Source of the DNA: Bacteroidales bacterium | GTDB lineage: Bacteria > Bacteroidota > Bacteroidia > Bacteroidales > Muribaculaceae | Length of the DNA: 64,000 nt | Reading direction: 5' to 3' | Assembly (NCBI GenBank): GCA_014800895.1 | Contig: JAAVFG010000015.1 | Span: forward strand, 18,294-82,293 | Shown: in pieces, positions 3,025-64,000 of the stretch | Numbering within the stretch: position 1 is the stretch's first letter | Layout of the letters: every line of letters begins with the position of its first letter | Made by a program: the position numbers and the translations under genes | Notes under the pieces: model-generated | Databases searched by the model: none | What the model was told of the DNA's origin: nothing | What the model saw: only the letters and a program-made list of their open reading frames with translations

Positions 3025-4668
3025 TTATTCCCCTATAAGAGTTTTGATATCATTCTCCACTGTTGAGATAGTGCCGATATTGAATTTCTCCTGGAGCACT
3101 TTAAGGATATCGGGAGTGAAGAAAGCAGGGAGAGTCGGGCCTGTATGGATATTCTGCACGCCGAGATAAAGGAGAGCGAGGAGCACGATTACGGCTTTCT
3201 GCTCATACCATGCGATATTGAATACGAGCGGGAGCTCATTGATAGACTTAAGTCCGAAAGCCTCCTGCAGAGCCATGGCGATACGTACGAGTGAATAGGA
3301 GTCATTACACTGTCCGGCATCCAATACGCGGGGCACACCCTCGATGTCGCCGAGCGGAAGCTTGTTATAGCGATACTTGGCACATCCGGCTGTCAGAATC
3401 ACGCAATCTTTCGGAAGCGCCTCCGCAAACTCAGTATAGTAGGAGCGTGAGGGGAAACGGCCGTCGCATCCTGCCATTACGACAAATTTACGGATCTTGC
3501 CCTCCTTGATAAGTTCTATAATCTTAGGAGCGAGCTCAATCACCTGATGATGTGCGAAACCGCCAATGATCTCGCCCTTCTCGATTTCTGTAGGAGCGGG
3601 ACAGGTCTTCGCCTTTGCGATCACCTCCGAGAAGTCATGGTTGCCTTCGGCGTCAGCATCGATATGGTGGGTGCCGGGCATATCCACTACACCGAGAGTA
3701 TAGATACGGTCGGTGTAAGTGGCATTCTTGCGTGGAGGCACGATACAGTTGGAAGTAAATACGAAGCAGCCGTTGAATGTCTCGAATTCATCCACCTGTT
3801 TCCACCATGCGTTGCCATAGTTTCCGGCGAAATGAGGATATTTCTTGAAGAATGGATAATACTGTCCGGGGAGCATCTCGGAGTGGGTATATACATCCAC
3901 TCCTGTTCCGGCGGTCTGTTCGAGGAGTTCCTCAAGGTCGTGGAGGTCATGCCCGGATATGAGGATACCGGGGTTATTGCGTACGCCTATATCCACCTTT
4001 GTGATCTCGGGGTTGCCATATCTTCCGGTGTTCGCGCTGTCAAGGAGAGCCATAGCTTTCACGCCGCCCTCGCCCATATAGAGCACAAGCTTCACGAGCT
4101 CATCGACAGTGATATCCTCGCGGCTCACCTCTTTGAGCACTTTCTCTATATATGCGTAGACATCGTCATCCTCATATTTGAGGTTGGCGGCATGGCGGGC
4201 ATAAGCAGCCGCACCCTTGGCACCATATATAGCCAACTGTTTCAGACCGCGTTTGTCGGGATCTTTCTCAGCGAGAACGCCGGTGACGGGCTCCAGCTTC
4301 TCATAGTCTTCCGGCTCAGCCTCGAGAGCTACTTCGGGAGCATCAGGGATTTTTATATCGAGTTCCTTGCATTTGGCGATAAGCTCGCGTTTCATCTGGA
4401 AAGCGCGACGGATAAAGCCATCAAGGGAGTCATTATCGAAATTGGCATTGGTGATGGTAGTGAAGAGAGCATCAATTACCTGATGAGAGGCATCCGCCTG
4501 AGGTGCGCCCGCTCCACGCAGGAGGTCATTAAGAATTGCAACGCCTCTTGTGGCATAAAGCAGAAGATCCATACGGGCGGAAGTTTCGGGAAGTTTGCCG
4601 CATACACCTCGGAGTGTGCAGCCGCTTCCTTTCGCTGTCTCCTGGCATTGATAACAGAACATATCCAT
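3025..4668 (-). CDS. hcp: Hydroxylamine reductase / hybrid cluster protein
   Basis: 547 residues, full length for the class I family. The N-terminal Cys5, Cys8, Cys17 and Cys23 (C-x2-C-x8-C-x5-C) bind the simple Fe-S cluster. Later motifs [38 protein letters not shown] and [10 protein letters not shown] supply ligands of the hybrid Fe-S-O cluster. Hcp reduces hydroxylamine in vitro and is linked to NO detoxification and protein S-nitrosylation in anaerobes. It stands alone on the minus strand; no Hcr reductase is beside it, so the electron donor is unknown. A 380-codon frame on the opposite strand is a shadow. Confidence 0.95.
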
Positions 4669-4782
4669 ACGTTGTGTTTTTATAAGTAAAGAAATAAGGT
4701 TGATGAGGAGAGTATATAAATAGAACGCGCCCTCAGGAATAAAGGTTTAGGATAGGCGATGTATATAAGAGATGTTATAAAG

Positions 4783-4812
4783 CAAAAAAATCGCCTGCCG
4801 GAAAGGCAGACG
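4783..4812 (-). terminator. Terminator of tRNA-Pro
   Basis: On the minus strand CGTCTGCC and GGCAGGCG form an 8-bp stem (4805-4812 with 4792-4799, one G-U), followed by ATTTTTTT. A textbook intrinsic terminator 12 bp beyond the tRNA. Confidence 0.75.
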
Positions 4813-4824
4813 ACTTAACTCAGT

Positions 4825-4897
4825 CGGGGTGACAGGATTCGAACCTGCGACCACCTGGTCCCAAACCAGGTGCGCTACCGGACTGCGCTACGCCCCG
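4825..4897 (-). tRNA. tRNA-Pro (anticodon TGG)
   Basis: 73 nt on the minus strand. The anticodon stem CCTGG/CCAGG encloses TTTGGGA, giving TGG. The T-arm GCAGG-TTCGAAT-CCTGT is present. The acceptor stem CGGGGCG/CACCCCG has one C-A mismatch at the sixth pair, which is unusual. No CCA is encoded. Promoter box at 4908-4915 and terminator at 4783-4812. Confidence 0.93.
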
Positions 4898-4907
4898 AAT
4901 GGTTTTG

Positions 4908-4915
4908 CAAAGTTA
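4908..4915 (-). promoter_or_regulatory. -7 box of tRNA-Pro promoter
   Basis: CAAAGTTA reads TAACTTTG on the minus strand, a TAnnTTTG match 11 bp before the tRNA 5' end. Confidence 0.5.
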
Positions 4916-4979
4916 ATAATTTTTATCGAGAAAAAGAATTTTTTCCGGATTTTTATTTTTTGAGAAGGTCAATGGAGCC

Positions 4980-6074
4980 TTAATTTTTGAGAAGGTCAAA
5001 ATAGCGGTTGAGAACATCCTGGGCGGCAGTGAAGGAAGACTGCTCATTATTAAGCACTCTCAGCTCCTTCTGCTCCAGCAGAGCCTGAATCTCCGGACGG
5101 CGGTAGAAGTCGGAGCGGAGCTGTTCATTTATAGTCTCGAACATCCAGTATTTAGCCTGCTCGTTTCTCTTGCGCTCGAAGTATCCCGTCTTTTTCACAT
5201 ACTCGAAATAGCGGTCGATCATATCCCATACTTTATCGATATTCAGCTCATAATATCCGCTGTATGTGATCACCTCCGGGTGCCATTTGCTCGGTGTGGG
5301 CGGGAATAGATGCAAGGCATTTCTGAATTGTGCAGCCGCCAGGTTGGCACGGTCCACGTTATCTCCGTCCGCCTTGTTGATCACTATACCGTCAGCCATC
5401 TCCATGATGCCGCGCTTGATACCCTGCAATTCGTCGCCGGTGCCTGCAAGCTGGATAAGGAGGAAGAAATCCACCATTGAGTGGACGGCGGTCTCGCTCT
5501 GACCCACGCCGACAGTCTCCACGAAGATATTGTCATAGCCGGCAGCCTCGCAAAGCACGATTGTCTCGCGGGTCTTCCTTGCCACTCCTCCCAAAGAGCC
5601 GGCGGAGGGGGAGGGTCGTATGAAAGCATCCTTCTCAACTGATAGTTTCTCCATACGGGTCTTATCGCCGAGAATGGAGCCGGATGTGCGCTCGCTGCTC
5701 GGGTCGATAGCCAGGACGGCAAGGCGTCCGCCCTGTTTCAAGACATGCAGACCGAAGACATCGATAGAGGTAGACTTGCCGGCACCCGGCACGCCCGTTA
5801 TACCAATACGGCGGGAATTGCCGGAATAGGGGAGACACTTCTCTATCACCTCCTGCGCCAATGCCTGATGATGATCCGCAACGCTTTCTACTAAAGTGAC
5901 AGCGCGCCCGAGGATAGAGACATCCCCCTTCAGGATACCCTCCACATATTCGCCGGCGGTCAGTTCGCGGCGTCTGTGACGAGGGCGGCGATAAGGATTC
6001 ACGGTAGGTTGGGAGGTCACGCCGGAATTGACCTGCAGACCTTTATATTCAGTATTATTTTCAGGATGTTCCAT
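4980..6074 (-). CDS. meaB: Methylmalonyl-CoA mutase-associated GTPase MeaB
   Basis: 364 residues. G3E-family P-loop GTPase that guards cobalamin loading and protects methylmalonyl-CoA mutase. Walker A is GVPGAGKS (94-101); then AIDPSSERTSGSILGDKTRM, the switch-like ETVGVGQSE, and the base-specificity motif NKADGDN follow. The last third, rich in aromatic and basic residues, is the dimerisation arm. The mutase subunits, normally neighbours in Bacteroidetes, are not in this window. The final 16 bp of the gene are repeated 27 bp downstream (4957-4972 versus 4984-4999), a small duplication of its 3' end. Confidence 0.93.
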   Translation of the reverse strand: MEHPENNTEYKGLQVNSGVTSQPTVNPYRRPRHRRRELTAGEYVEGILKGDVSILGRAVTLVESVADHHQALAQEVIEKCLPYSGNSRRIGITGVPGAGKSTSIDVFGLHVLKQGGRLAVLAIDPSSERTSGSILGDKTRMEKLSVEKDAFIRPSPSAGSLGGVARKTRETIVLCEAAGYDNIFVETVGVGQSETAVHSMVDFFLLIQLAGTGDELQGIKRGIMEMADGIVINKADGDNVDRANLAAAQFRNALHLFPPTPSKWHPEVITYSGYYELNIDKVWDMIDRYFEYVKKTGYFERKRNEQAKYWMFETINEQLRSDFYRRPEIQALLEQKELRVLNNEQSSFTAAQDVLNRYFDLLKN

Positions 6075-6148
6075 GGAAAAGCAAGATTTAAAATTTAGTA
6101 GCTGCTAATATACGTAAGTTATGCGATGCGTCCTGCTCCAAGGCTTTA

Positions 6149-7225
6149 TTATTCCTTGATGCCGACTACGTGAAGCACGCGGATGGGATGCAGGGGGTCG
6201 TCGGAAAGAACCCTGACACTGAGGTTGAAAGCCCCTTTCTCTATCATCGCCGGATTAATGGAGATAACTGCCTCCCCATCTTTCCCAGGCTTGATAACTG
6301 TGGGTTTCTTCTTGACGGTCAGAGCCTTGGATTGTGGGGCGATCTTGATAATATTCATTTTCGTCTTCCCCTGATTCTGTATGCTGAAAGAGAGAGTTCG
6401 GCTGTCATTATCCGTAACGATGCCGACATCGGCGCGTTCCGAAAGGAGATAGCAACGCGGACCGTTATCCACCTGCTCCGGAGTGAGACGGGAGAAATCG
6501 GGAGTGACGTTAGCCTTGAAAGTCACGGTCAGCGGATCGGTATCCTCCTTGCCGTCAGATAAGACTATCGGAATCTCTATGTCTCCTATATTCTCGACCT
6601 CTGCCGAATTGAAATAAAGGGAGATAGATGCCACATCGCCCGGACCGAGCCGTTTCTGCGAGATCTCCGCTTTCAGCGCCTTGTTTTTAGGGGCTATGCT
6701 TGGATTGATCGAGTCAGTCGACTGGTTATAGGCATTGATGAAATAATTCCGCGCCACGCCATGACGCATCTCGCCACCCGCCATATCCTTCATAGAGACA
6801 CGGAGCGCGCCGGCTGAGAAGGGATAGAACTGGTCGAGAGATTCGGGAGTGCCGAGCACATTCCCCTTGATACCTATTCTGTAAGTGTCATGCTCACCGA
6901 TAAATACGCGGATAGACTTATCAAATTTTCCGGGACGCCCGGTGGGGTCGTAAATAAATGATATCACGGCGGTATCTCCGGGAGCTATCGGCTCTTCGGG
7001 ATATTCCACGCTCGTGCATCCGCAGCTCGGGCGCGCGCCGGAGATGATCACCTCCTCCTTACCGCGATTAATGAACTGCACCTTCCCTTTGGCAGGTCCC
7101 GCCGCCTCCTTCATCAGTCCGAAGTCATATTCCTTCTGAAGCCATTCTATCTGAGCCGAAGCATCAATCGGGAGAAGGGTGGAGATAAAGAAGAGGGGGA
7201 GAAGATATTTAAGAATGGACTTCAT
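6149..7225 (-). CDS. DUF1573 secreted protein (long form)
   Basis: 358 residues with an N-terminal signal peptide (KYLLPLFFISTLLPIDASA). DUF1573 is an immunoglobulin/HYDIN-like beta-sandwich common in exported Bacteroidetes proteins. The family motif SCGCTSVEYP is near residue 67, followed by the GDTAVISFIYDPTGRPG strand region, and at least two further Ig-like segments fill the C-terminal half. The biochemical role is unknown. It sits 2 bp downstream of a short DUF1573 gene on the same strand, so the two are a tandem pair and one transcription unit. Confidence 0.85.
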   Translation of the reverse strand: MKSILKYLLPLFFISTLLPIDASAQIEWLQKEYDFGLMKEAAGPAKGKVQFINRGKEEVIISGARPSCGCTSVEYPEEPIAPGDTAVISFIYDPTGRPGKFDKSIRVFIGEHDTYRIGIKGNVLGTPESLDQFYPFSAGALRVSMKDMAGGEMRHGVARNYFINAYNQSTDSINPSIAPKNKALKAEISQKRLGPGDVASISLYFNSAEVENIGDIEIPIVLSDGKEDTDPLTVTFKANVTPDFSRLTPEQVDNGPRCYLLSERADVGIVTDNDSRTLSFSIQNQGKTKMNIIKIAPQSKALTVKKKPTVIKPGKDGEAVISINPAMIEKGAFNLSVRVLSDDPLHPIRVLHVVGIKE

Positions 7226-7227
7226 GA

Positions 7228-7632
7228 TTATTTATTTTTAGGAGTCACATTGCCGCTTATCTTCAATCTCACTTTCCCCTCACGAGCATTGGAGCGCACA
7301 GTCACCACTTTCTCGAAGGGACCGGGGCGGCCGATAGGATTGTAAGTGACGCGTATCTTGCCGTTTTTACCCGGCGCCACGGGGTTCTTGGGATATTCCG
7401 GGCGAGTGCATCCACACTGAGCGGTTGCATCGTAAATGATCAGATTCCCCTTGCCGTCGTTGACAAACTGGAAATCATAGCTCACCGGACCGCCATCCTC
7501 CTTGACGATGCCGAAGTTGTGGGTCTTTTCAGCAAAAGCGATCTCTGCCTTCTCCTTCCCCTTTGCAGTCATCGGGAGGAGGAAGAAGATAACGGCGCCG
7601 AGCGCCAGAAGGTATTTTAGATATTTCTTCAT
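7228..7632 (-). CDS. DUF1573 secreted protein (short form)
   Basis: 134 residues, essentially a signal peptide (KYLLALGAVIFFLLPMTAKG) plus one DUF1573 domain. It carries the matching QCGCTRPEYPKNPVAPGKNG motif and the YNPIGRPGPFEKVVTV strand. Its first half resembles the long paralogue immediately downstream, which suggests local duplication. It is the first gene of the pair. Function unknown; expected periplasmic or outer-surface location. Confidence 0.85.
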   Translation of the reverse strand: MKKYLKYLLALGAVIFFLLPMTAKGKEKAEIAFAEKTHNFGIVKEDGGPVSYDFQFVNDGKGNLIIYDATAQCGCTRPEYPKNPVAPGKNGKIRVTYNPIGRPGPFEKVVTVRSNAREGKVRLKISGNVTPKNK

Positions 7633-7749
7633 AATCTATGCCTTTATGTAAGTGGTTTTCTTTTTTAAAGTTTGACTAAGAGTATAACAATTTGTTTAAT
7701 CAGTGTTATCATGACAGCCATACATTATCATGCCGCCTGAACATTGTCA

Positions 7750-10700
7750 TCAAGGATTCTTCGACATTGTAGGTCTCATGCGCGGGGAGAGGGAGTTGCG
7801 GTAATGAGTCCATGCACGGTTGCGGCGCTCGACATCCTCCATGTACCATTCGCCTATTTTCCTCAGGTCCCCGCGCCGGAAGGTATCAGCCAATTCCACG
7901 AAGAGTGCGCCCCATTCCCTTTCAGTGCGGAAGATAGAATCGCCCATCGTTATTGAGAGGAGGGTATGCGGGTCGGCTCCATATTCACGGTGTGTACGGA
8001 GAGCTAACTCCAGCGCCTCCTCCTTATGACCGTTGCGCAGAAGCCTCTTGGCGGCAGCTCCGATATCCCCCCTCATGCGCGCCATCATGGAAGCCGGGAT
8101 ACGGTCAAGATAGACAGTGTCGGAAGAGGCGTCGTTAGGGGCTTTTATGCCATGAGCTATACGTATCAGCGCCGAATCCTGACGACCCGCCGGCTCCTTG
8201 CCGAGACGGTATGCGAAGATGCGGTCGGTCATGTGGGGACGCAAAGAGATATACTGACCCGACGGAAGATTTTTCTGCCAGTAGAATGGACGGAACAGCA
8301 CCGAGTCGGACGATGAGGAGGCATTGGAGGCGATAAGGCTCAGCATCATCAGCTTATGAAATGCGAACGTGCGCGAATCCCCGTTGCGCGAAAGGGCTGC
8401 GACAGGTATATTCAGTGAGTCTCCCTCAGCCAATGTCAGGGAAATATTGCCAGCCTCGACGGCATATGATGGGTTCTCTTTGAGTCGGCGCAGCATCTCC
8501 CGGGCATTCATTGTGTCATACGCCCCCGGCATGGCTTTATCCTGCATATGGGCGTGATAGATTATATCGCGCGCCTCAAGGATGGAATTGAGATAAGGGG
8601 CATCCTCCCAAGCCCTCATTACGAGAGCTGCGTATCTGGGGGAGGAGAGATAAGAGAGATTGATCACTCTCACATCCCTGCGTATCCCCTCCACCTCCTG
8701 GGCATACCACAGCGGGAATGTGAAATTATCGCCATCCACGAATATTACGGCATTCGGGTCGAGGGAGTTAAGTATATTCTCAGCCAGTCGGGAGGCTGCT
8801 CTTCTGCCGGAGCGGTCATGATCATCGTAATTCTCGGTGAGCATCAGCGCCGCCACCCCCGCCGAGGGGATGAATCCGACAGAGGCATAAATCAGAAGGG
8901 AGCGTAGAGTAAGAGGGCGGTGCTTTCTTAACAGGCGCGCACACCGGTTGGCGATGATGCGTGCCAGTCCGAGGGCTCCGGCGGCAATCCAGATCGAGAA
9001 TGCCATGTAGGAGCCGAGGAAGGTATAATCGCGTTCGCGTGGTTCGCCGGGAGTCTGGTTGAGATATATCACGATAGCCACACCGGTCATGATGAAGAGG
9101 AGCGCCACCACCGCGCAAGCCATACGTCCGCGCCAGTTGGAGCGGCACATCCAGATTATTCCCCATATCCCGAGCAGGAAGGGGAGCATATAGTAGCGGT
9201 TGCGTCCCTTGTTTTTCTCTCCCGCGTGAGGAGGAAGGGCATCTTCCGCCGAAAGCATGGCATTGTCAAGAGGGGAGATGCCGGTGATGAAATTGCCATG
9301 CTCCACTTCCCCCGTGGAGGGGATATCATTCTGTCTCCCCGAGAAATTCCACATAAGATAGCGTAGATACATATATCCGATCTGGTATCCGAAGAGATAT
9401 TGGAAATTCTGAAGATAAGTAGGACGTAAGGCTATAGGATGAGTGCGTTTCCCTTCCGCCCCCATTTTAGCTACGGGCATTCCCAGCGTGTCAAGAGCTT
9501 CGGAGATAAGGACAGTATCCATACTCTCCGCCCTCATGCCCGCCCATGCCGCGTAAGCTTCTATGTCGAACGGACTGCGCCCGGTGAGTCGTGGAAACCA
9601 CATATTCAGCTCCGGAGTCAGCACCTGCTGTGAGCGATAGCCGCGCACGATATAAGCCTCCTTCCCTTTCTTCAGCGCTTTCTCATTGATAACGGAGTCT
9701 GCCGGAGTCAGGGCGGAGAATGTGTTGGGAGCGCGCAACACGGCTTCCGCCATCAGCGGCTCAATCTGTCGTGTGGTGTGCTCCACTACATAGCGAGTAT
9801 ATCTGGGAGTGGAATCAAGGTTCCATTCCTCCCTCAGCATCGGGCGGCTGTAGGGGGTATTGCCGTAAAGGAGCGGCGCCGCCCCATACTGTTCGCGCGC
9901 CTGATATGCGGCGAAAGAGAAGGGATTGCCGGGCATCGCCGCATTGGGAGGAGCAGGTATATCGCCGCGTATGGGGATTAATGCGTAAGCCGAATAGCCG
10001 GTGAGGAGCATGGCGAGCATCCACATCATGAGGTTGATGCGGATAGGGTTGAAATATCGTATCCTTACGATTATCATTGTCGCCAGGGCAGACACCGCCG
10101 CCCCGACTAAGAAATTTCCGGAAAATATAAATAATCCGGAAAGGAAAACCGGAGGAAAGATCGACAGGGAGATGGCGCCGCGGTTGGATGAGCAGCGAGT
10201 CACGCTCAGAGCCACTATCAGCGATATCCCTAACAAGGCGACGTAGGCGGCTACTCCCCATAGTAGGGGAAGCCCGAGAGTATTCGCGGCGAAGAGCTCC
10301 ATCTCGGCTGCCAATGCTATAGTGGATGGCATCATGCCGGTCAGTATGCAGCCCACCATTATGATGGATGCAATGAAGATAATCAGAATCTTCCATAATG
10401 ACTTTATACTCCTGCGGAGAGCCCACACGATGGCGAGCGCGGGAATGACGAGGAGGTTGAGCTGATGCACTCCGAGCGAGAGCCCGAAAATGTAAGCCAA
10501 AAGTATGAGATAGCGCCAGCCTAAAGATGTGGAGGAGGCGCGCGCCCATTTCAGCATGAGCCATACGGAAAGGGCTGTAAGGAAAATAGACATGGCATAC
10601 ACCTCAGCTTCTACGGCAGAATACCAAACGGAGTCGCACCATCCGAATATCAGCGCGCCGATAAAGGCTGCTCCGGCGGCATAGAAGGCATGAAGGCGAC

Positions 10701-11055
10701 GGCGCACACCGTCGCGCGTCTTAAGCACCCATACTGCCCCGATAAAGATAATCTTGGATAGGAAAAATCCGGCTAAGGCAGTGAAGAGGCCGCTTGACAG
10801 ATTGATGGCTAACGCCGCATATTTACCCGGAAGAAAGAGTGTGACAATCCTCTCCACCAGCATCCATACGGGATTTCCCGGGGGATGTCCGGGCACGAGA
10901 CGAGTGGCGGCCGTGACATATTCCGGACAGTCCCAGAACGACACAGTCGGGGGGATAGTGGACCAGTAAGTGATCAGGAGGATAAAGAATACCAGCCAGC
11001 TCACCGTCCTGTCGGTCACGGTAAAAATACGGTATCTATCTAAAACATCCTTCAT
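7750..11055 (-). CDS. DUF2723 (GT117-type) multi-pass membrane protein
   Basis: About 1101 residues from MKDVLDRYR (ATG at 11055); an ATG 51 bp further out is possible but would overlap the upstream gene more. The N-terminal half is a string of transmembrane helices containing the family signature FWDCPEYVTAATRLVPGHPPGNP near residue 45. The C-terminal half is largely soluble, with a second membrane block around PREAR-like GEPRERDYTFLGSYMAFSIW. DUF2723 proteins are polytopic and assigned to the membrane glycosyltransferase class GT117 in Bacteroidetes, probably using lipid-linked sugars. It overlaps the upstream GT4 gene by 20 bp, supporting a shared role in surface glycan assembly. Confidence 0.85.
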   Translation of the reverse strand: MKDVLDRYRIFTVTDRTVSWLVFFILLITYWSTIPPTVSFWDCPEYVTAATRLVPGHPPGNPVWMLVERIVTLFLPGKYAALAINLSSGLFTALAGFFLSKIIFIGAVWVLKTRDGVRRRLHAFYAAGAAFIGALIFGWCDSVWYSAVEAEVYAMSIFLTALSVWLMLKWARASSTSLGWRYLILLAYIFGLSLGVHQLNLLVIPALAIVWALRRSIKSLWKILIIFIASIIMVGCILTGMMPSTIALAAEMELFAANTLGLPLLWGVAAYVALLGISLIVALSVTRCSSNRGAISLSIFPPVFLSGLFIFSGNFLVGAAVSALATMIIVRIRYFNPIRINLMMWMLAMLLTGYSAYALIPIRGDIPAPPNAAMPGNPFSFAAYQAREQYGAAPLLYGNTPYSRPMLREEWNLDSTPRYTRYVVEHTTRQIEPLMAEAVLRAPNTFSALTPADSVINEKALKKGKEAYIVRGYRSQQVLTPELNMWFPRLTGRSPFDIEAYAAWAGMRAESMDTVLISEALDTLGMPVAKMGAEGKRTHPIALRPTYLQNFQYLFGYQIGYMYLRYLMWNFSGRQNDIPSTGEVEHGNFITGISPLDNAMLSAEDALPPHAGEKNKGRNRYYMLPFLLGIWGIIWMCRSNWRGRMACAVVALLFIMTGVAIVIYLNQTPGEPRERDYTFLGSYMAFSIWIAAGALGLARIIANRCARLLRKHRPLTLRSLLIYASVGFIPSAGVAALMLTENYDDHDRSGRRAASRLAENILNSLDPNAVIFVDGDNFTFPLWYAQEVEGIRRDVRVINLSYLSSPRYAALVMRAWEDAPYLNSILEARDIIYHAHMQDKAMPGAYDTMNAREMLRRLKENPSYAVEAGNISLTLAEGDSLNIPVAALSRNGDSRTFAFHKLMMLSLIASNASSSSDSVLFRPFYWQKNLPSGQYISLRPHMTDRIFAYRLGKEPAGRQDSALIRIAHGIKAPNDASSDTVYLDRIPASMMARMRGDIGAAAKRLLRNGHKEEALELALRTHREYGADPHTLLSITMGDSIFRTEREWGALFVELADTFRRGDLRKIGEWYMEDVERRNRAWTHYRNSLSPRMRPTMSKNP

Positions 11056-12142
11056 AGATAGCATCAAGCTTTTTAGTAAATTCCTGCCATGACAGAGCTT
11101 TTTCAAACTCCCTCTTGGCTCTCTCTCCCATCTCCCGGCGGAGGTCGGGGGATGTGGCGAGGCGTGTCATCGCCTCCGCGAGAGTGGCGGTGTCGCCGGG
11201 GCGCACCATAAGCGCGGTCTCGCCGTCGCGCAGATATTCGGTCTGCGCTCCGTTGGCGGTGCATATCTGCGGTTTGCCGTAAGCCATATATCTGAGGTTG
11301 CTGAGACCGAAAGCCTCGCTCTCCACGGAGGGGACCACCCCGAAATGAGTGCGGGCAATCAGCTCGGAGGGGTCTTCACACCCGGTGTTCCAATCTATGG
11401 CGTCCATCACTTCGCGTATCATTGCTCTTTTGCGCAGACGGTCGGTGAAGTCGGGATTTCCCGTTCCGGCGATGACCAGACGCATCTTGACATTGCGCAT
11501 CGCCATGAGAGCGTCGATAAGATTCTCCAGACCTTTACGCTCCGCCACTTGCCCGAAGTAAAGGGCAGTGACCGGTCCGCGTTCCGGCTCGCTTACATCG
11601 AGCGATTCAGGATTGAGGTATAAGCTGTTATGCAGCACATGCACTTTCCCTTCGGGTATAGGCTTCAGTCCGGCTTCCCATGAGTGACAGAAGCGTTCGT
11701 AAGCCAGCTTCGACACGAATATATGCGCGTCGATATTATTATATAGATGTCGGAATATCTTCGAGTCTCTCCCTTTTCTCACCGCATGGCGTGTCGCGGC
11801 TATCTTTATCCCCTCCCTCTGCGCCAGGAAGCGGGCGAGGATAGCGGTATAGGCGTCACGGTAACGGTGCACATGGATGAGGGTATCTCCCGGGGGAAGG
11901 CGACGCAGAAACCGCGCCATACGGAATATGGAAGTGAAGTCGAGCATACCCGTGAAAGGGGCATGGCCGACTTCAATATCATTTGCTTTAAAACGTGAAT
12001 CGACGGCATGCGCTCCGGTGGTGAGCGCGAAAACGTTTAGACCTTTCTCCTTATAGTGACGACAAATGTCGAGAGCGTATGTCTGCGCTCCCGCCATTCT
12101 GTTGCCGGGCACGATATGAAGAAGATTTTGCATAGGCTTCAA
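11036..12142 (-). CDS. Glycosyltransferase family 4 protein
   Basis: 368 residues with the GT-B layout. The N-terminal acceptor domain has HIVPGNRMAGAQTYALDICR and the C-terminal nucleotide-sugar domain has ALYFGQVAERKGLENLIDAL and GDTATLAEAMTRLATSPDLR. The usual EX7E motif reads EAFGLSNLR here: the second glutamate is arginine, so sugar-phosphate binding may be changed. It is followed directly by the DUF2723 membrane protein with a short overlap, so both probably act on the same cell-surface glycan. Cytoplasmic, membrane-associated. Donor and acceptor cannot be read from the sequence. Confidence 0.88.
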   Translation of the reverse strand: MKPMQNLLHIVPGNRMAGAQTYALDICRHYKEKGLNVFALTTGAHAVDSRFKANDIEVGHAPFTGMLDFTSIFRMARFLRRLPPGDTLIHVHRYRDAYTAILARFLAQREGIKIAATRHAVRKGRDSKIFRHLYNNIDAHIFVSKLAYERFCHSWEAGLKPIPEGKVHVLHNSLYLNPESLDVSEPERGPVTALYFGQVAERKGLENLIDALMAMRNVKMRLVIAGTGNPDFTDRLRKRAMIREVMDAIDWNTGCEDPSELIARTHFGVVPSVESEAFGLSNLRYMAYGKPQICTANGAQTEYLRDGETALMVRPGDTATLAEAMTRLATSPDLRREMGERAKREFEKALSWQEFTKKLDAIYEGCFR

Positions 12143-54276: not shown

Positions 54277-54375
54277 ATCCGGTATGACTTTTCTACGTAT
54301 TCAGGCAAAAAGCAAATTGGCTCATTATTTGTTATAAATAGAGATAGAAATTATTAAAACATAAAATTGAAAAAT

Positions 54376-54936
54376 ATGGCAGAAAATAAAGAAGTAGTAG
54401 GACCCGGTAAGTTTGTCGAGTATTCCTATCGTTTATATGATGCAGCCGATGGTAAATTGCTTTTCGAGACCGAGAAGGGCAAGCCTGACTTCATGGTATA
54501 TGGAGTATCCCATGAGATCGTACCCGGTCTGATAGAGGTGATGCGCGGTCTGAAGGCTGGAGATAAGTTTGAGATTGAACTTCCCCCGGCAGCCGCTTTC
54601 GGCGAGCCGAGTCCCGAGTATTTCATGGAGCTTGACAAGGAGATCTTCATGCGCGACGGACAGTTGGCTGAGGAGGTAAAGGTCGGTGCCGATCTTCCTA
54701 TGATGACAGCGGAGGGTTTCCGTGTATTAGGACGTGTGCTTGAGGTCGGAGATAAGATCAAGATGGACTTCAATCATCCCTTCGCAGGCAAGACCGTGAG
54801 ATATGAAGGCGAGGTAGAACTCGTGCGTGATGCCACCGGCGATGAGCTTAAGCCTACCGGTTGCGGATGCGGCAGCGGCGGATGTGGCGAAGGCTGCGGC
54901 AGCGACTGTGGCTCAAACTGTGAAGGCTGTCACTAA
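54376..54936 (+). CDS. SlyD-like FKBP peptidyl-prolyl isomerase
   Basis: 186 residues from MAENKEVVGPGK (ATG at 54376); the frame extends to a TTG 9 bp upstream. FKBP halves lie around KFVEYSYRLYDAADGKLLFE and IKMDFNHPFAGKTVRYEGEV. Between them is the insert-in-flap region (PPAAAFGEPSPEYFMELDKE ... VGADLPMMTAEGFRVLGRV) that gives chaperone activity. The C-terminal GCGCGSGGCGEGCGSDCGSN tail holds seven Cys and one His, resembling the nickel-binding tail of SlyD. It aids protein folding and possibly nickel delivery. Confidence 0.9.
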   Translation: MAENKEVVGPGKFVEYSYRLYDAADGKLLFETEKGKPDFMVYGVSHEIVPGLIEVMRGLKAGDKFEIELPPAAAFGEPSPEYFMELDKEIFMRDGQLAEEVKVGADLPMMTAEGFRVLGRVLEVGDKIKMDFNHPFAGKTVRYEGEVELVRDATGDELKPTGCGCGSGGCGEGCGSDCGSNCEGCH

Positions 54937-57469: not shown

Positions 57470-57835
57470 ATGAAAAGAATCTTATCTTTCATTCTTGTAA
57501 TGATTGCAATCGCACTTCCATCGATAGCAAAAGAATCAAATGAAAATTCTTCAACTCAACATGTTGAGTTAGAATTTCGCCGGACTCAGAATACACCTAC
57601 TATTCTTCACGCCCCCATGCGCATTAATATAGATGTGTATTACAATAATGAGAAGGAGGCCTTGGAGATTTGCTATGACGGAGAAGCAGCCGGAGAAGTT
57701 TTCCTCTACTTAAACGAAAACATCATTGGATATGATTCCGACATAAACACATCATTTCAAATTTCATCTCGCGGACTCTATAAAATAGAGATCGTTGGAG
57801 AAACTTGGATAGCAAACGGATTTCTACAATTGTAA
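57470..57835 (+). CDS. DUF3244 secreted protein
   Basis: 121 residues starting MKRILSFILVMIAIALPSIA, a signal peptide. The mature part (LEFRRTQNTPTILHAPMRIN; VYYNNEKEALEICYDGEAAG; ISSRGLYKIEIVGETWIANG) fits the DUF3244 beta-sandwich of Bacteroidales exported proteins. Often such genes are near surface or secretion systems; function unknown. It is first in the putative accessory operon, 50 bp before the TonB receptor gene, and controlled by the promoter at 57406. Confidence 0.75.
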   Translation: MKRILSFILVMIAIALPSIAKESNENSSTQHVELEFRRTQNTPTILHAPMRINIDVYYNNEKEALEICYDGEAAGEVFLYLNENIIGYDSDINTSFQISSRGLYKIEIVGETWIANGFLQL

Positions 57836-57885
57836 TATTCAACTCAGCATACATGATATAATACAATTTTAAGTATCAGATAGTT

Positions 57886-60240
57886 ATGCTTAAGTCCATA
57901 TCGTTATTTATCATCTACATATGTTCTTATACACTTGAAATACAGGCACAAACAATCCAAGGGAATGTTGTCAATGAAGAACAACAGCCTATGCCGTTTG
58001 CCAACATTGTATTCATGAAAGCAGATTCAACTTATGTCAACTCGACAATAGCTGATGATATGGGAGGCTTTTTTATTCCTTATAATAAGGAGATTAAATT
58101 ACTGAATGTTTCTTATATAGGCTACGTCCCTCAATATCAGAGTATAGAGACTGATAGCATCGGCACAATACAGATGCTACCGGACGCTGCTATGTTGGGA
58201 GAAGTGGTGGTAACGGGCTCTCGTCCTGTAATAAAGAGAGATGTTGACAGACTGGTATTTAATGTAGAAAGCACCCCGCTGTCACAAGGAAGCAACGCCC
58301 TTGAACTGCTGAAACAGACTCCCTTGGTTAAAGCCACTGACACATCAATCGGGATAATTGGAAAGAGCGGCGTCAAGATAATGCTCAACGGTAAAATTTC
58401 CTATCTCAGCGGGAACGACTTGATGCAATATCTGAAGACTCTTCAATCAGACGATGTGGCAAGTATAGAGGTTATAACAACCCCTCCCAGCCGATATGAT
58501 GCCGGTGGAAACGGAGGAATGATAAACATTGTCACAAAACGTAATCCGGAAGAAGGTCTTAACGGTAATGTAGGTGCGGCATATACACAGCGGACATTTG
58601 CTGGAGAGAACGTGAACGCGACAGTCAACTACCGTTCCGCTCGCTCATTCCTTTCATTGAAATTGCGTCAAAGCCACAACAAAGGATCTGTGGATGAAAA
58701 CTATACAATCAGCCAACCATCTAAGATGCAGACAAGCAGCACTGGTAGGACAGACACGTATAATAATTATGGTGCCAATATAGCTCTTGAACAGCAGCTG
58801 TCATCTTCATCTATACTTGGGGTTATTTACGATTTCAGTTATGGTAGAGACAATATCAACTCCCACAACAGATATAGCTACATGAACGAGAATGCCCTGG
58901 ATTCGTTGCTGACAACCAATTCAGTCCAAAAAGGTATCACAAGGATACACACCCTGAATGCTTATTATGACCTAAGACTTGGCTCATCAGGAAAGAAACT
59001 GAATATCGCAGCTAACTACATGCACCATTCTCCTGACAAGAATGTGAATTTCAGCACCCTGAACCATTCCTCAGACATCTGCACAGTTGTCAAGGAACCG
59101 AGCGATATCACTTATCGTATATGGACTGGAGAAGTAAATCTTGAGTTGCCATTCTCATGGCTTAATATAGAGACCGGCATGAAATACAGCGACATCCGTA
59201 ATCTATCCAACATGGAATACTATAATCTTATAGGAAGTGATTATGTCGCAGATCCCGGACGGTGTAATGAGTTCGACTACAATGAGAGGACAATAGCCGG
59301 ATACATCAGTGCGATGCGCAGTATTAACAGTCATTTTGCAATTCAGGCGGGACTACGCTACGAACATACGTTTGTCAAGGGTATAACCCCTCACAGCATT
59401 GTAGAGGATGTAAGGACCGACTATGGCAAATTATTCCCGACAGTCTATCTGTCGTACACACTTGACAAGTCCAATATGTTCAATATCAACTATGCACGGC
59501 GAATCAACCGACCGTATTTCCGGGCTATCAACCCATTTAAATGGTACACCAATCCTAACAATATAGACGAAGGTAATCCACAACTGAAGCCGTCGTATGC
59601 TGATAACGTGGAAGTTAACTATATTTTCAGGAGCAATTTGTCCGCAACCATATATTATCAGCAGGAAAACAACGCCTATGGCCAGATGATGTATGTAAGG
59701 GAAAATAACACTACATACAGCACGTATGAAAATATCTACAACAACCGTCAGTTTGGAGTGAATCTGTCGTATAATCTCCGCCCGTTAAGTTGGTGGAACG
59801 TATTTCTCACAGGAAATTATGTTTATAACAACTCCGATATAAAGGCAGAAGGATATCTCGCCCAAAACGGGAATTCGTTTAATTTCCAGATAAACAATAC
59901 CGTTTCCTTCGATAAAGAACGACGTTTCCAACTATTCTTGAACTATTCCCATAATTTCCCTTATCATGTCGGAGTAACTTATGACAATAGCTACGCAAAT
60001 TTCAGCATGGGACTAAAGGGTGCGTTTATGGATAACAATCTTATTATCAACATATATGCCAATGACATATTCAAACAGGACCTCATAAAGCGAAGAAAGG
60101 TATCCGTGACTAACACCCAGGTTTATAATAATTACTACGACTCCAGATACCTGCGTATAAGCATCACTTATAAATGGGGCAATAATAAGCTTAAAACCAA
60201 GAATATGAAGATTTCGTTCAGTGAAGGAAATCGAATATAA
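57886..60240 (+). CDS. TonB-dependent receptor with OMP_b-brl_3 barrel
   Basis: 784 residues. Signal peptide (SLFIIYICSYTLEIQA), then a carboxypeptidase-regulatory-like domain (GNVVNEEQQPMPFANIVFMK) and a plug with GEVVVTGSRPVIKRDVDRLV and GNGGMINIVTKRNPEEGLNG, and a large barrel ending RYLRISITYKWGNNKLKTKN. This is the receptor kind without a SusD partner. Placed directly between the DUF3244 gene and the RiPP precursor (26 bp), it may export or take up the product, or have another ligand. No TonB/ExbBD genes nearby. Confidence 0.88.
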   Translation: MLKSISLFIIYICSYTLEIQAQTIQGNVVNEEQQPMPFANIVFMKADSTYVNSTIADDMGGFFIPYNKEIKLLNVSYIGYVPQYQSIETDSIGTIQMLPDAAMLGEVVVTGSRPVIKRDVDRLVFNVESTPLSQGSNALELLKQTPLVKATDTSIGIIGKSGVKIMLNGKISYLSGNDLMQYLKTLQSDDVASIEVITTPPSRYDAGGNGGMINIVTKRNPEEGLNGNVGAAYTQRTFAGENVNATVNYRSARSFLSLKLRQSHNKGSVDENYTISQPSKMQTSSTGRTDTYNNYGANIALEQQLSSSSILGVIYDFSYGRDNINSHNRYSYMNENALDSLLTTNSVQKGITRIHTLNAYYDLRLGSSGKKLNIAANYMHHSPDKNVNFSTLNHSSDICTVVKEPSDITYRIWTGEVNLELPFSWLNIETGMKYSDIRNLSNMEYYNLIGSDYVADPGRCNEFDYNERTIAGYISAMRSINSHFAIQAGLRYEHTFVKGITPHSIVEDVRTDYGKLFPTVYLSYTLDKSNMFNINYARRINRPYFRAINPFKWYTNPNNIDEGNPQLKPSYADNVEVNYIFRSNLSATIYYQQENNAYGQMMYVRENNTTYSTYENIYNNRQFGVNLSYNLRPLSWWNVFLTGNYVYNNSDIKAEGYLAQNGNSFNFQINNTVSFDKERRFQLFLNYSHNFPYHVGVTYDNSYANFSMGLKGAFMDNNLIINIYANDIFKQDLIKRRKVSVTNTQVYNNYYDSRYLRISITYKWGNNKLKTKNMKISFSEGNRI

Positions 60241-60266
60241 GTTTCACAATTATAAATATTTAAATT

Positions 60267-60431
60267 ATGATTAAACCAAATCTCATCGGCATCGCCGACA
60301 TCGAGAAGCTTAACGCTTCCGAACTCAACAATGTAAAGGGCGGTGCATGTTCATTCGCTCAGGATTCATGGACTGAAGACTCTGAGCATCACGACTCGGA
60401 CAACAATGACACCTTCAACGGACACGAATAA
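60267..60431 (+). CDS. RiPP precursor peptide with Gly-Gly leader
   Basis: 54 residues, read directly from the sequence. The leader MIKPNLIGIADIEKLNASEL then NNVKGGA carries the ELxxVxGG-type cleavage motif (Gly25-Gly26) of Bacteroidales natural product precursors. The 28-residue core (ACSFAQDSWTEDSEHHDSDN then NDTFNGHE) has six Ser/Thr and eight Asp/Glu, and no lysine, which fits omega-ester formation by an ATP-grasp ligase (graspetide-type). It lies 26 bp after the TonB receptor gene and 112 bp before the maturase, separated from it by a hairpin. Confidence 0.8.
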   Translation: MIKPNLIGIADIEKLNASELNNVKGGACSFAQDSWTEDSEHHDSDNNDTFNGHE

Positions 60432-60486
60432 TCCAAGGTTCAGCCTGAAATTCCAGCTCATCCTTAAAGCTCAATAGCCTAATCAG

Positions 60487-60524
60487 TTTCTTAGTATACT
60501 CCAAACGAGGAGTATCCTAAGAAA
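60487..60524 (+). promoter_or_regulatory. Hairpin between precursor and maturase
   Basis: A 16-bp stem with one mismatch (TTTCTTAGTATACTCC, 60487-60502, with 60509-60524), loop AAACGA, and no T-run after it. It could act as a partial attenuator or RNA stabiliser, giving more precursor than maturase transcript. Confidence 0.6.
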
Positions 60525-60543
60525 TATCAAAAAATCCCATAAA

Positions 60544-61503
60544 ATGATTCTAGTATTATCTTTCAGAGAATATGAGCAATGTACGGATCCAGTCATTGAT
60601 TGGCTCTTGTATTATAACATCCCCTTTCTAAAACTCACACAACAAGATCTCTATGATTCTTCTAGAATCTTGATTGATATTACTGACAAGAAATTAATTT
60701 TCAATGGGATTGATTTAGTAAAGGAAGTAGATTGTATATATTTTAGGCGGTTTGAAGACAATATTCATCTGAATCTAAGAACTGGATATCCTATAAACCA
60801 GGCTTTATTTGAATTGAAATATGAACTTAACGATTTAATTAAACATATTTTCTTTCTACTTAAGGATAAGGTTTGGTTTCCTGCCCCCTATAATGTCAGC
60901 CTTGATAAGCTAACGGCTCTACTATATGCACAAGAATGTGGGTTGAAAGTTCCTAAAAGCATTGTTAGCAATAACAAAAGAGATATTATTGATTTTGTAT
61001 CGAAATACCCATCCTCAATCATAAAACCAATACGTTTCTCAGGCTACTATATCATGGAGAATAATACATATAATGTATATACCAACTCGGTTAACATGGC
61101 TGATATTGAAAGTCTTGAGAATGAAGTCTTTTTCCCATCTTTAATACAAGAAAAAATTGATAAAGATTTCGAAATCAGAACCTTTTATATAGACGGAGAG
61201 ATATATGCCAGTGCAATCATAGTTAATGATAGAAATTATGACGATGTAAAAAGGAATTTTGGGTCAGAAGACATCAAGTGGATTCCCTTTAAATTTCCAT
61301 CAGAAATCGAAAATAAACTAAGAAGATTCATGGAAAAACTATCACTCAATACTGGCTCCATTGATATGATCAAAACCTTAGATGGTGAATTTACCTTCAT
61401 AGAAGTAAATCCAGTAGGCCAATTTGTTGCGCCGAGTAATCGGTGCAATTTCAATTTAGAACACCTTATCGCCAAATGGCTTATTAAACATGGGACAAGA
61501 TAA
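60544..61503 (+). CDS. gwsG: Grasp-with-spasm ATP-grasp peptide maturase
   Basis: 319 residues of the ATP-grasp fold. Begins MILVLSFREYEQCTDPVIDW; the central domain has YPSSIIKPIRFSGYYIMENN (lysine that binds ATP) and PSLIQEKIDKDFEIRTFYID; the metal- and ATP-binding end is TFIEVNPVGQF near 285, with Glu and Asn intact. These ligases form ester or amide links between side chains of a precursor core. The next genes follow with overlaps, so it heads a tight unit; the precursor is just upstream. Lower GC than the housekeeping genes suggests gain by transfer. Confidence 0.85.
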   Translation: MILVLSFREYEQCTDPVIDWLLYYNIPFLKLTQQDLYDSSRILIDITDKKLIFNGIDLVKEVDCIYFRRFEDNIHLNLRTGYPINQALFELKYELNDLIKHIFFLLKDKVWFPAPYNVSLDKLTALLYAQECGLKVPKSIVSNNKRDIIDFVSKYPSSIIKPIRFSGYYIMENNTYNVYTNSVNMADIESLENEVFFPSLIQEKIDKDFEIRTFYIDGEIYASAIIVNDRNYDDVKRNFGSEDIKWIPFKFPSEIENKLRRFMEKLSLNTGSIDMIKTLDGEFTFIEVNPVGQFVAPSNRCNFNLEHLIAKWLIKHGTR

Positions 61504-61693
61504 TATTTTTTACAAAGAAGAACTATGCAAGCTTCCTTTATTCTATCGTAAGATGGATAAAATGGACACTGAGAATGTAAAAGAACTGCATAAAAAGGAT
61601 GTGTTTACTGAAAGTACAATCCATCAATCAAAAAGATATAGAGTAATTTTCCCGACAATTCCTTTCTCTAATATAATTATAAGCAATGACTAA
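61490..61693 (+). CDS. Unrecognised 67-residue protein of the RiPP locus
   Basis: 67 residues, hydrophilic and basic (KEELCKLPLFYRKMDKMDTE; HQSKRYRVIFPTIPFSNIII). No Gly-Gly leader, signal or membrane segment is seen. The start overlaps gwsG by 14 bp and the stop overlaps the next gene by 8 bp, so its translation is probably coupled. It may be a small accessory protein of the system, a leader-recognition element, or a remnant. No known family recognised. Confidence 0.5.
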   Translation: MGQDNIFYKEELCKLPLFYRKMDKMDTENVKELHKKDVFTESTIHQSKRYRVIFPTIPFSNIIISND

Positions 61694-62651
61694 TGACTCA
61701 TATTATTTTTTATTGCCCTATTGTTTTGTTGTAACAGGCAGCCCTTTGAGTATTATTTTTAATGCTCAGAAATGTAGTGTTACATATATAAATGAAGGTA
61801 TTGAATCCCTTATCAATCTGTTTGACAATAAATCTATCTCTGAAATAGAGATGTTATATTCAGATGAATCTAATCTGCTTCAACAAACTATTTCATATCT
61901 TAAAGATAGAGGTATAATCGGCATAAGAAAAAGTACCGATTTATTTCCCAATTTAGATCTCTGTTATATATCACCAGAACATATCAAGCATCTAGTTGTC
62001 GAGTATTCAAAGCAATATGATATAAACACTATTGTTTCCATTGTCAACACTTTATTGGTTAAATTTATGGAAATAAGATTTTCTGAGGATATTATTGAGG
62101 AAGATCTGGAATATGCACTTTCTGAAATCTACAAGAGTTCCATAAAAAGTATACAGCTTGTAGCCAGTCATAAATATACGCATCTTCTCTCTAAAATATG
62201 TAAGAGAAAAGTCGCAGACATTATTGTCAGCATTATTTTTTATGGTTCGCCTTATTCAGGAAGAGAAGAAAGACATGGTAAAAGGTTTTATTATGTCAAA
62301 AACAACTATCATGAACTTTGTTCCTCAAATAATGATTATCTAAAAAATTATATCTTTGATCTTAAATACTTCCTGCTCTCACATTCGTTCAATCCTTATT
62401 ACTATAAACGCCTATGTATCGATAAAGAAGGATATATTAAAAACTGCTTAAAAAATGACCAGGTTTATGGAAATATAAGAGACAAATATATAGACATAAT
62501 TGCAGTGATTAATAGCCCCTCTTTCCAAAAACTATGGGGGTGTACCTGTGACCATATCTTAGAAATCAAAGATAACCCATTAAGATACAATATGTACGTA
62601 ACAAATAACCTTAAAGAAGTTGAAAACGGATTATTCTCTATAATTTCGTAA
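61686..62651 (+). CDS. gwsS: SPASM-type maturase partner, divergent
   Basis: 321 residues resembling the SPASM-domain member of grasp-with-spasm systems. The N-terminus (YYFLLPYCFVVTGSPLSIIF; INLFDNKSISEIEMLYSDES) matches that family's start. The end carries PYYYKRLCIDKEGYIKNCLK and FQKLWGCTCDHILEIKDNPL, corresponding to the SPASM segment. No CxxxCxxC of radical SAM enzymes is present. The cysteine pair expected in the VCKDCEFRY-like segment is replaced (EIKDNPLRY). It may act as a non-catalytic partner or be decaying. It overlaps the preceding gene and the next gene begins 2 bp after it. Confidence 0.7.
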   Translation: MTNDSYYFLLPYCFVVTGSPLSIIFNAQKCSVTYINEGIESLINLFDNKSISEIEMLYSDESNLLQQTISYLKDRGIIGIRKSTDLFPNLDLCYISPEHIKHLVVEYSKQYDINTIVSIVNTLLVKFMEIRFSEDIIEEDLEYALSEIYKSSIKSIQLVASHKYTHLLSKICKRKVADIIVSIIFYGSPYSGREERHGKRFYYVKNNYHELCSSNNDYLKNYIFDLKYFLLSHSFNPYYYKRLCIDKEGYIKNCLKNDQVYGNIRDKYIDIIAVINSPSFQKLWGCTCDHILEIKDNPLRYNMYVTNNLKEVENGLFSIIS

Positions 62652-62652
62652 T

Positions 62653-63030
62653 ATGCCCAAACCATTCCCTTTCATCAAGCAAGAAGATGCAATGCAATGC
62701 GGAGTTGCATGCCTCCAAAAGATATGTACCTACTATGGGGAAAACTATTCTCATAATTTCATATCAACTCTTTGTCATGCTACTACAGAAGGTGTTTATT
62801 TGTTAGGCATTTGCAAGGCAGCAATTTCCTTAGGGCTTAAATGTCAGCCCATAAAGGCGACTATCCATCATCTTACCTCGATATCATCTCCTTGTATATT
62901 ACATTGGAATCAAAACCATTTTGTCATACTTTATAGAATAAAAAACGGGAAATATTATATTGGTACAACCATCCGCGATAGCGTATTGAAACCTGTCTGT
63001 TTAAAATCTAACTTTGCCCAAAAATTCTGA
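62653..63030 (+). CDS. Stand-alone C39 peptidase domain, probably truncated
   Basis: 125 residues. It matches the peptidase part of C39 peptidase/ABC exporters (usually over 700 residues in full). Gln10, Cys16 (QCGVACLQKICTYYG) and His (LHWNQNHFVILYRIKNGKYY) are conserved, but the catalytic Asp of the usual ADP segment is lost (IGTTIRDS). The membrane and ATPase parts are missing. C39 domains cleave Gly-Gly leaders, so the precursor's GG motif makes a functional link likely, if the domain is active. Confidence 0.75.
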   Translation: MPKPFPFIKQEDAMQCGVACLQKICTYYGENYSHNFISTLCHATTEGVYLLGICKAAISLGLKCQPIKATIHHLTSISSPCILHWNQNHFVILYRIKNGKYYIGTTIRDSVLKPVCLKSNFAQKF

Positions 63031-63033
63031 TTT

Positions 63034-63314
63034 ATGGATAAAGTGGCGAAATACAGACAGGTTTTCAATTCTTTTAGGGATCTTTGTTCTCGGACAAAAA
63101 ACTTTTGGGGTGCAGTTCAATTGTTAGACAGCCTCTTTTTTTATAGTCTTCACTTAATCCATATGATGAAGAAAGGCACCGACCGCGTATAGTGGTACAT
63201 TTATCATCCAATCTTGCTCCTGATATTCCTTCCTATGAAAGCCATTACTATACTGATAATCAGGATAGATTTATAGAAAATAATACACGAAAGGTACAGA
63301 TTTTGGTAGTATGA
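63034..63314 (+). pseudogene. Possible frameshifted gene remnant after the RiPP locus
   Basis: Two overlapping frames suggest one broken gene. The first (63034-63192) encodes MDKVAKYRQVFNSFRDLCSR and ends at TAG. The second frame (63147-63314) encodes SSLNPYDEERHRPRIVVHLS and ends at TGA. The change of frame could occur at the T7 run near 63136-63142. No family recognised. It may also be chance open frame. Confidence 0.3.
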
Positions 63315-63575: not shown

Positions 63576-63579
63576 TATT

Positions 63580-64000
63580 ATGAGGATAGAAAGAAAAATA
63601 TATCTTGACAAGGTTATAGAAAGCCGTCATAACGGAATGATAAAGATTATCACTGGCGTACGCTGAAGTGGTAAATCTTACCTTCTGTTCGATTTGTTTG
63701 CCGACTGGTTGGAGGCAGATGGTGTTTCATCTGCACATATCATTAAAATAGATTTGGATAACCGAAGAAACAAGTCCCTCCGCAATCCTGACAATCTATT
63801 GGAGTTCATTGATTCCAAAATGATAGATAGGGAGATGTATTATATTCTCATTGATGAGATTCAGTTGGTTGACGAGTTTGAAGATGTTCTCAACAGTTAT
63901 CTGAAAATTAAGAATGCCGATGTTTACGTTACGGGGAGTACCGCACGGTTTCTGTCTAAGGATGTAATAACCACCTTTAGAGGACGAGGTGAGGAGATTA
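63580..64000 (+). pseudogene. DUF4143-type AAA ATPase with in-frame stop in the P-loop (partial)
   Basis: The frame from ATG 63580 encodes MRIERKIYLDKVIESRHNGM, then MIKIITGVR, stop TGA at 63664-63666, then SGKSYLLFDLFADWLEADGV and a Walker B-like YYILIDEIQLV. The normal P-loop reads GVRRxGKS, so the stop most likely replaces an Arg codon (CGA to TGA). Everything around it is in frame, including VYVTGSTARFLSKDVITTFR at the end. The gene continues beyond the window. It may be a recent pseudogene or an instance of stop read-through. Confidence 0.8.

Follow-up and report, generated by a model that had tools for sequence, protein, structure and literature searches.

The window, by which we mean the whole stretch of 64,000 nucleotides analysed here (contig JAAVFG010000015.1 of a Bacteroidales bacterium), carries near its right end a locus of the grasp-with-spasm type. 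A precursor peptide gene is followed by genes for the ATP-grasp ligase GwsG, a small protein of the LPL type and the partner protein GwsS, and then by what is left of a C39 peptidase-ATP-binding cassette (ABC) transporter. All five open reading frames (ORFs) are on the forward strand; the first two are 112 bp apart, the next two junctions overlap by 14 bp and 8 bp, and 1 bp separates the last two. The ORF list agrees in position, strand and spacing with a preliminary description of this DNA. The G+C content is 31-35% over 60-64 kb versus about 50% in most of the window, and the tract lies at a contig end, the contig stopping 190 bp past the window. In the following list, L018 denotes the one close relative of the locus that was found, and L190 a place with another copy of the insertion sequence end.

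60267-60431, + strand: precursor peptide of 54 aa with a Gly-Gly (GG) leader and the core ACSFAQDSWTEDSEHHDSDNNDTFNGHE (ORF list)
60544-61503, + strand: GwsG, ATP-grasp ligase (graspetide synthetase), by match to the TIGR04192 profile
61490-61693, + strand: LPL-type small protein of 67 aa with the motif PLFYRKM (ORF, motif and description of the LPL family)
61686-62651, + strand: cysteine-less GwsS, a SPASM-derived partner with one of the seven cluster cysteines and without CX3CX2C (TIGR04193, alignments, trees)
62653-63030, + strand: ORF of 125 aa with a C39 domain, composed of a transporter stump and 22 codons derived from an insertion sequence (IS)
62653-62961, + strand: remnant of a C39 peptidase-ABC transporter, residues 1-103 (PF03412; alignment to the L018 transporter)
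62962-63089, + strand: left end of an IS66-type IS, itself truncated (repeat in genomes of the genus; L190 copy)
57886-60240, + strand: outer-membrane beta-barrel of the TonB-receptor type, a possible outer-membrane partner (PF14905, OMP_b-brl_3, 313 bits)
57470-57835 (or from 57407), + strand: small protein with a signal-peptide-like start, membership in the locus uncertain (ORF)

GwsG scores best, among NCBIfam families, with TIGR04192 (209.6 bits, cut-off 230) over nearly its full length. It is 79% identical to GwsG of L018 and related in sequence to the structures of AMdnB, MdnC and CdnC; entry 5ig8 is taken by us to be MdnB. These microviridin-type synthetases (5ig9, identified as MdnC in PMC7823629; 7m4s, AMdnB; 7mgv, CdnC) are by sequence ATP-grasp ligases as well. 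GwsS matches TIGR04193 with 103.5 bits (cut-off 175) over 302 of 342 positions, from residue 6 to 302. Both maturases are under their NCBIfam equivalog cut-offs, which leaves some room for a chance grouping of unrelated ORFs in an AT-rich tract, but order and tight spacing are repeated in seven loci and such a grouping is considered extremely improbable. A second copy of the precursor was not found in the same genome at E<=1.

Judged by its genes, the locus belongs to the grasp-with-spasm graspetide clusters of Bacteroidota and probably makes an ester-stapled acidic peptide. The preliminary description had named this type, the GG-leader precursor and an acidic product; the type is right, the TIGR04192 and TIGR04193 similarities, though under cut-off, going beyond chance together with the PF03412 match and the same order in L018, and the Ser/Thr-Asp/Glu core is compatible with the predicted side-chain esters. 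It had also called the layout uncommon, which does not hold. The system kind is already known, and on the sequence evidence the layout is the 'branch 5' gene order published by Makarova et al. (2022; PMC8939145), whose account of these systems names precursor, ATP-grasp, LPL and SPASM proteins, describes the LPL family, and gives C39-ABC transporters and pfam14905 outer-membrane proteins (OMPs) among the co-occurring families. The gene order is thus the same as in branch 5, whereas the SPASM cluster cysteines have been lost here. As only one of seven persists, we file the locus as a variant and not as a standard grasp-with-spasm member.

Cysteine loss in the partner protein

The preliminary description did not include the loss of the cluster cysteines. 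In the partners of the window and L018, the canonical C-terminal motif CKDCEFRYxCxDC...C is replaced by IKDNPLRYNMYVTNN. Among 68 distinct GwsS-like proteins, 45 keep all seven cluster cysteines, 17 keep four or five and six keep none or one (L032-L047 were left out of this count, as was L003, a fragment with canonical cysteines, after being aligned once). A seventh member of the clade, from Hymenobacter, keeps one of seven. Each of the seven members has lost at least six of the seven ligand columns, and their TIGR04193 scores (103.5-151.3 bits) all fall under the cut-off of 175.

The SPASM protein of branch 5 is called a radical SAM enzyme in the relevant passage of PMC8939145, whereas here the motif CX3CX2C occurs in 0 of the 68 proteins within their first 220 residues, and PF04055 does not appear in the list of families for 17 GwsS members at E<=1. 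TIGR04150, which by its NCBIfam name is a radical-SAM-like protein without radical-SAM function, is matched by two of these 17 (best E 1.7e-05) and not by the window protein. PF13186 (SPASM) is matched by four of the six cysteine-less partners at E<=1, and descent from SPASM proteins is therefore likely. The idea that the six cysteine-less proteins are simply those without PF13186 was dropped, since four match.

The cysteine-less partners form a group of their own. In the full-length tree (100/98, 44 rows) a single branch separates the six from the rest, and they still group together when the SPASM part is removed (94/83 with 44 rows, 92/97 with 68 rows), and a quick tree of 69 rows, again with the SPASM part removed, unites all seven including Hymenobacter with a Shimodaira-Hasegawa approximate likelihood-ratio test (SH-aLRT) value of 97. 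The six are also one branch side in the ATP-grasp tree (100/99, 53 rows, without L095 and L096, which have two pairs each, and without the Hymenobacter row). The partial loss in the four-cysteine type requires several changes on the 68-row tree. The proportion of nonsynonymous differences (pN) between window and L018 amounts to 0.115 (GwsG), 0.155 (LPL), 0.162 (precursor), 0.197 (partner) and 0.297 (C39 remnant); synonymous differences are saturated. This pattern is compatible with selection on the cysteine-less protein, and the remnant is perhaps under weaker constraint.

A search for close relatives in a named genome collection, made with the partner, gave one match (64% identical), L018, which comes from the metagenome-assembled genome RUG12354 ('uncultured Prevotellaceae bacterium'). 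This locus contains an OMP end, two precursors homologous to that of the window, GwsG, a 68-aa protein, the partner, an intact C39-ABC transporter of 732 aa, and proteins of 160 aa and 151 aa. It is adjoined (6837-11539) by genes for a TraG-type coupling protein, a relaxase, MobC and a ParA-like protein and is therefore probably on a mobilisable element. The seventh member is encoded on a plasmid of Hymenobacter canadensis, typed as mobilizable, where a partner annotated as 'hypothetical protein' is found beside annotated gwsG, OMP and peptidase-ABC transporter genes. There are ten similar precursors on this plasmid, nine of them annotated as ComC/BlpC-leader peptides, and an LPL-type frame without annotation lies between its gwsG and partner genes. 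A check of gene order in related genomes had been proposed in the preliminary description; the order is shared by L018, four further cysteine-less loci and the Hymenobacter plasmid, and the tight spacing recurs across the seven loci.

Wider samples were searched as well. Within the genus, 3 of 111 genomes gave a match, namely the full-length partner of the window itself, a fragment in G228 that has the canonical cysteines, and one weak match. TIGR04193 was matched in 15 of 247 genomes of the family, none above cut-off, and 13 of these 15 were dropped as matching in the C-terminal part only; the phylum sample gave 30 of 395, 11 of them above cut-off. Profiles built from cysteine-less proteins found matches in 47 of 301 genomes (family of G345) and 34 of 395 (class). 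The cysteine-less form occurs, among the matches listed, in 4 of 30 loci of the former (L061-L090, where L061 is the place of L031/L048 again) and in 2 of 30 of the latter, which include four duplicates of earlier proteins and the window and G345 again. In viral contigs, none of 169 pattern-matching stretches encodes a relative.

The core peptides of the clade have a character of their own. Those of window and L018 share EDSxHHDSxNNDTF. The 18 cores of the six cysteine-less loci contain 56 D[ST] pairs (shuffle mean 26.2, maximum 44), a count that does not represent 18 independent observations because two sister loci supply 12 of the cores; the other two types show no excess over shuffled sequences (25 versus 20.6 and 21 versus 21.1). 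Cores of at least 20 aa contain Cys in 3 of 18 cases for the cysteine-less type, 20 of 23 for the four-cysteine and 13 of 23 for the seven-cysteine type, which is suggestive and, being uncorrected for kinship, is not used as proof. The GG rule by which cores were found lets in spurious ORFs, and the Hymenobacter cores, with one Cys each, stand outside this count by type.

We consider it fairly likely that this is a branch 5 graspetide locus of a distinct clade, in which GwsS and LPL would serve as non-redox partners and the transporter has been interrupted by an IS66-type end; for the cysteine-less GwsS, we infer a non-redox scaffold. The non-independence of the cores is one of several points that weigh against this view. 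The full-length tree carries a warning that long branches meet at L031 and at the window, bootstrap values are unsettled in the 68-row tree, and the 94/83 branch is under its own mark. The proportion of synonymous differences between the partners of window and L018 (pS 0.787) is saturated. AlphaFold reached only a predicted local distance difference test score (pLDDT) of 37 for these two partners, with no reliable fold; a profile of 17 partners gave three weak matches to PDB sequences (best E 0.0012). The cysteine check covers the listed loci, and many matches of the cysteine-less profiles that have no locus lie beyond them. In window, L018 and Hymenobacter, three of the seven loci, the cores have one Cys, which leaves room for Cys chemistry.

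Finally, the cysteine-less partner could hold a metal through other residues. The locus would then belong to the ordinary grasp-with-spasm kind, its partner remaining a redox or metal enzyme in a clade that uses other ligands. The TIGR04193 similarity from residue 6 to 302 and the four remaining PF13186 matches fit this alternative, as do the Cys-bearing cores and a KNC cysteine that is retained in the window, L018, L062, L063 and L194. However, the KNC cysteine is missing from two members, the alignment of the six cysteine-less partners shows no further invariant Cys or His, and the loss of six or seven ligand columns extends to all seven members, so that we regard other ligands as unlikely.

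According to the passage on graspetide group 14 in Carter et al. (2026; PMC13097080), a SPASM-domain protein co-occurs with every member; two auxiliary [4Fe-4S] centres are named there, a difference from the presumably cluster-free window partner. Our literature search, to which supplementary files were out of reach, found no published account of the cysteine-less clade. A clade that has lost the cluster ligands while the gene is kept in the operon is a natural experiment, and it suggests that the partner can work without iron-sulfur chemistry.

The LPL protein and the predicted mechanism

The LPL protein of the window is considered a member of its family by motif and position, as it contains KLPLFYRKM, lacks a GG motif and is encoded directly upstream of the SPASM gene. 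The gap between gwsG and gwsS contains a small ORF of 38-100 aa in all six cysteine-less pairs, in 17 of 18 pairs of the four-cysteine type and in 30 of 32 of the seven-cysteine type (56 pairs from 59 loci surveyed; L052, L144, L168 and L169 yielded none). The strict motif P[LVIF]F.R.[LMIVF], defined after the sequences had been inspected, is found in four of the seven LPL proteins of the clade, where shuffling gives a mean of 0.01; six of the seven have a relaxed form. Among the LPL proteins of the other two types, none of 17 and none of 30 has the strict form and one of each has the relaxed form, and neither form is present in the 77 leaders found by the GG rule.

Being small and encoded inside the operon, LPL might itself be a second substrate and not an auxiliary protein. 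We consider this improbable: it has no GG motif, its motif is conserved, a small ORF stands between gwsG and gwsS in 53 of the 56 pairs, and Makarova et al. express the same auxiliary view in the passage concerned (PMC8939145).

As described in passages of PMC7823629 and PMC13039773, a PFFARFL helix of the precursor leader activates microviridin ligases, whereas in the window clade a similar motif is found in the separate LPL protein. This suggests that a leader helix may be supplied in trans; that LPL might touch the ATP-grasp protein was already remarked by Makarova et al. in the section consulted (PMC8939145). Glu191, Asp192 and Asn195 of MdnC contact the leader Arg according to PMC7823629, in the part seen. 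At the position of Asp192, mapped by eye, window and L018 have Asp while the remaining four of the six have Phe or Met, a result that argues against the microviridin contact having simply been copied. The motif was framed post hoc and the enzyme contact is kept in only two of six, and for these reasons the trans-leader idea is put forward as a hypothesis. In its full form, which we regard as doubtful, the activating helix would have been split off into the LPL gene and a cluster-free GwsS would hold LPL, GwsG and the GG precursor together as a natural trans-leader synthetase. If true, a retired iron-sulfur protein would serve as scaffold.

Under the preferred reading with non-redox partners, GwsG would phosphorylate Asp/Glu side chains of the core and close esters onto Ser/Thr. 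The cysteine-less GwsS and LPL would bind or present the precursor and activate GwsG, and a C39-ABC transporter would cut after GG and export the product. A similar reliance of a graspetide synthetase on a co-occurring partner is described for rosaritide (MirB/MirC) in the passage of PMC13097080 that deals with it; there MirC is a predicted PpiC-type peptidyl-prolyl isomerase, whereas the window partner is SPASM-derived. The roles of partner and LPL become testable with a small set of proteins, and the LPL motif is a concrete hypothesis for the switching on of ligases whose precursors have no activating leader motif.

Transporter remnant and neighbouring genes

The C39 peptidase domain had been taken for a gene of its own. 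The ORF 62653-63030 does match PF03412 (Peptidase_C39; 92 bits, cut-off 22), but only its residues 1-103 align to the 732-aa transporter of L018, up to KYYI. The regions of the Cys and the His are kept, and the alignment stops just ahead of the IADP stretch, which we take to hold the usual catalytic Asp. Complete peptidase and ABC parts are not present in the window ORF, which departs after residue 103. From about 62962 onwards the sequence is a repeat found at many places in genomes of the genus, and the match of seven fetched copies begins within four bases (62959-62963). In L190, genes for TnpB_IS66 and IS66 transposase lie behind the same IS end. Because the break at about 62962 coincides with an IS66-type end, the supposed free-standing C39 protein is a transporter stump whose last 22 codons and stop come from the IS. 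The transporter being cut short, export from the locus is probably crippled.

The same break raises the question whether the locus as a whole is dying, with export removed by the IS66-type insertion and the other genes drifting, a view compatible with a non-redox partner. The transporter ends after residue 103, and between 62641 and 64000 there is no trace of its remainder or of the 160-aa and 151-aa genes of L018 (best E past the C39 part 0.50). The remnant has a pN of 0.297 versus 0.09-0.20 for the other genes, the low values of which may date from before the insertion, and the nearby contig end points the same way. However, the ORFs for precursor, GwsG, LPL and GwsS are intact, and another C39-ABC transporter could take over in trans. 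We regard decay of the locus as quite possible, short of likely.

Such a transporter is encoded in full in the same genome (C23:67581-69755; 68% identical to that of L018), and another one, on C20, is 39% identical; either might serve in trans. In the genome of the window, the export step would then have been either lost or taken over by another C39-ABC transporter, such as that of contig C23.

Upstream of the precursor, the preliminary description had seen a TonB receptor and a DUF3244 gene. The former stands as an OMP of the PF14905 type; the latter has no Pfam match at E<=0.01 (best AAA_3, E 0.096). An OMP is found near all six fetched cysteine-less loci, downstream in the case of L048, and in Hymenobacter, where it is annotated as 'outer membrane beta-barrel family protein'; in L018 the C-terminal part of the barrel is conserved, immediately ahead of the two precursor genes. 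In the other surveyed loci it was seen for 3 of 50 pairs, with flanks of unequal length. The proposed passage of the product through this receptor fits the co-location in the clade loci, its basis being association only.

Several other features were noted. The surroundings of the transporter on C23 (L103, C23:60000-77000) show at 7567-10010 the C39-ABC gene and then a 72-aa ORF resembling the 160-aa protein of L018, with no precursor recognised among the ORFs listed for L103. On C20 (L104, C20:1-14000) there is a separate locus at 3857-9886 that resembles those of ribosomally synthesized and post-translationally modified peptides. It comprises an 87-aa Cys-rich GG peptide, a radical SAM protein of 452 aa (PF04055; CefB is its best NCBIfam match, far under cut-off), a 705-aa ORF and a C39-ABC transporter. 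Beyond the IS end of the window follow a short sequence (63093-63145) that resembles repetitive extragenic palindromes and is repeated in many genomes of the genus, often as inverted neighbours, and an AAA_14-type ATPase frame (63578-64000) that is broken by an in-frame TGA and heads to the contig end. Further upstream, at 54367-54936, an FKBP-type isomerase is encoded which has a very Cys/Gly-rich C-terminal tail (GCGCGSGGCGEGCGSDCGSNCEGCH).

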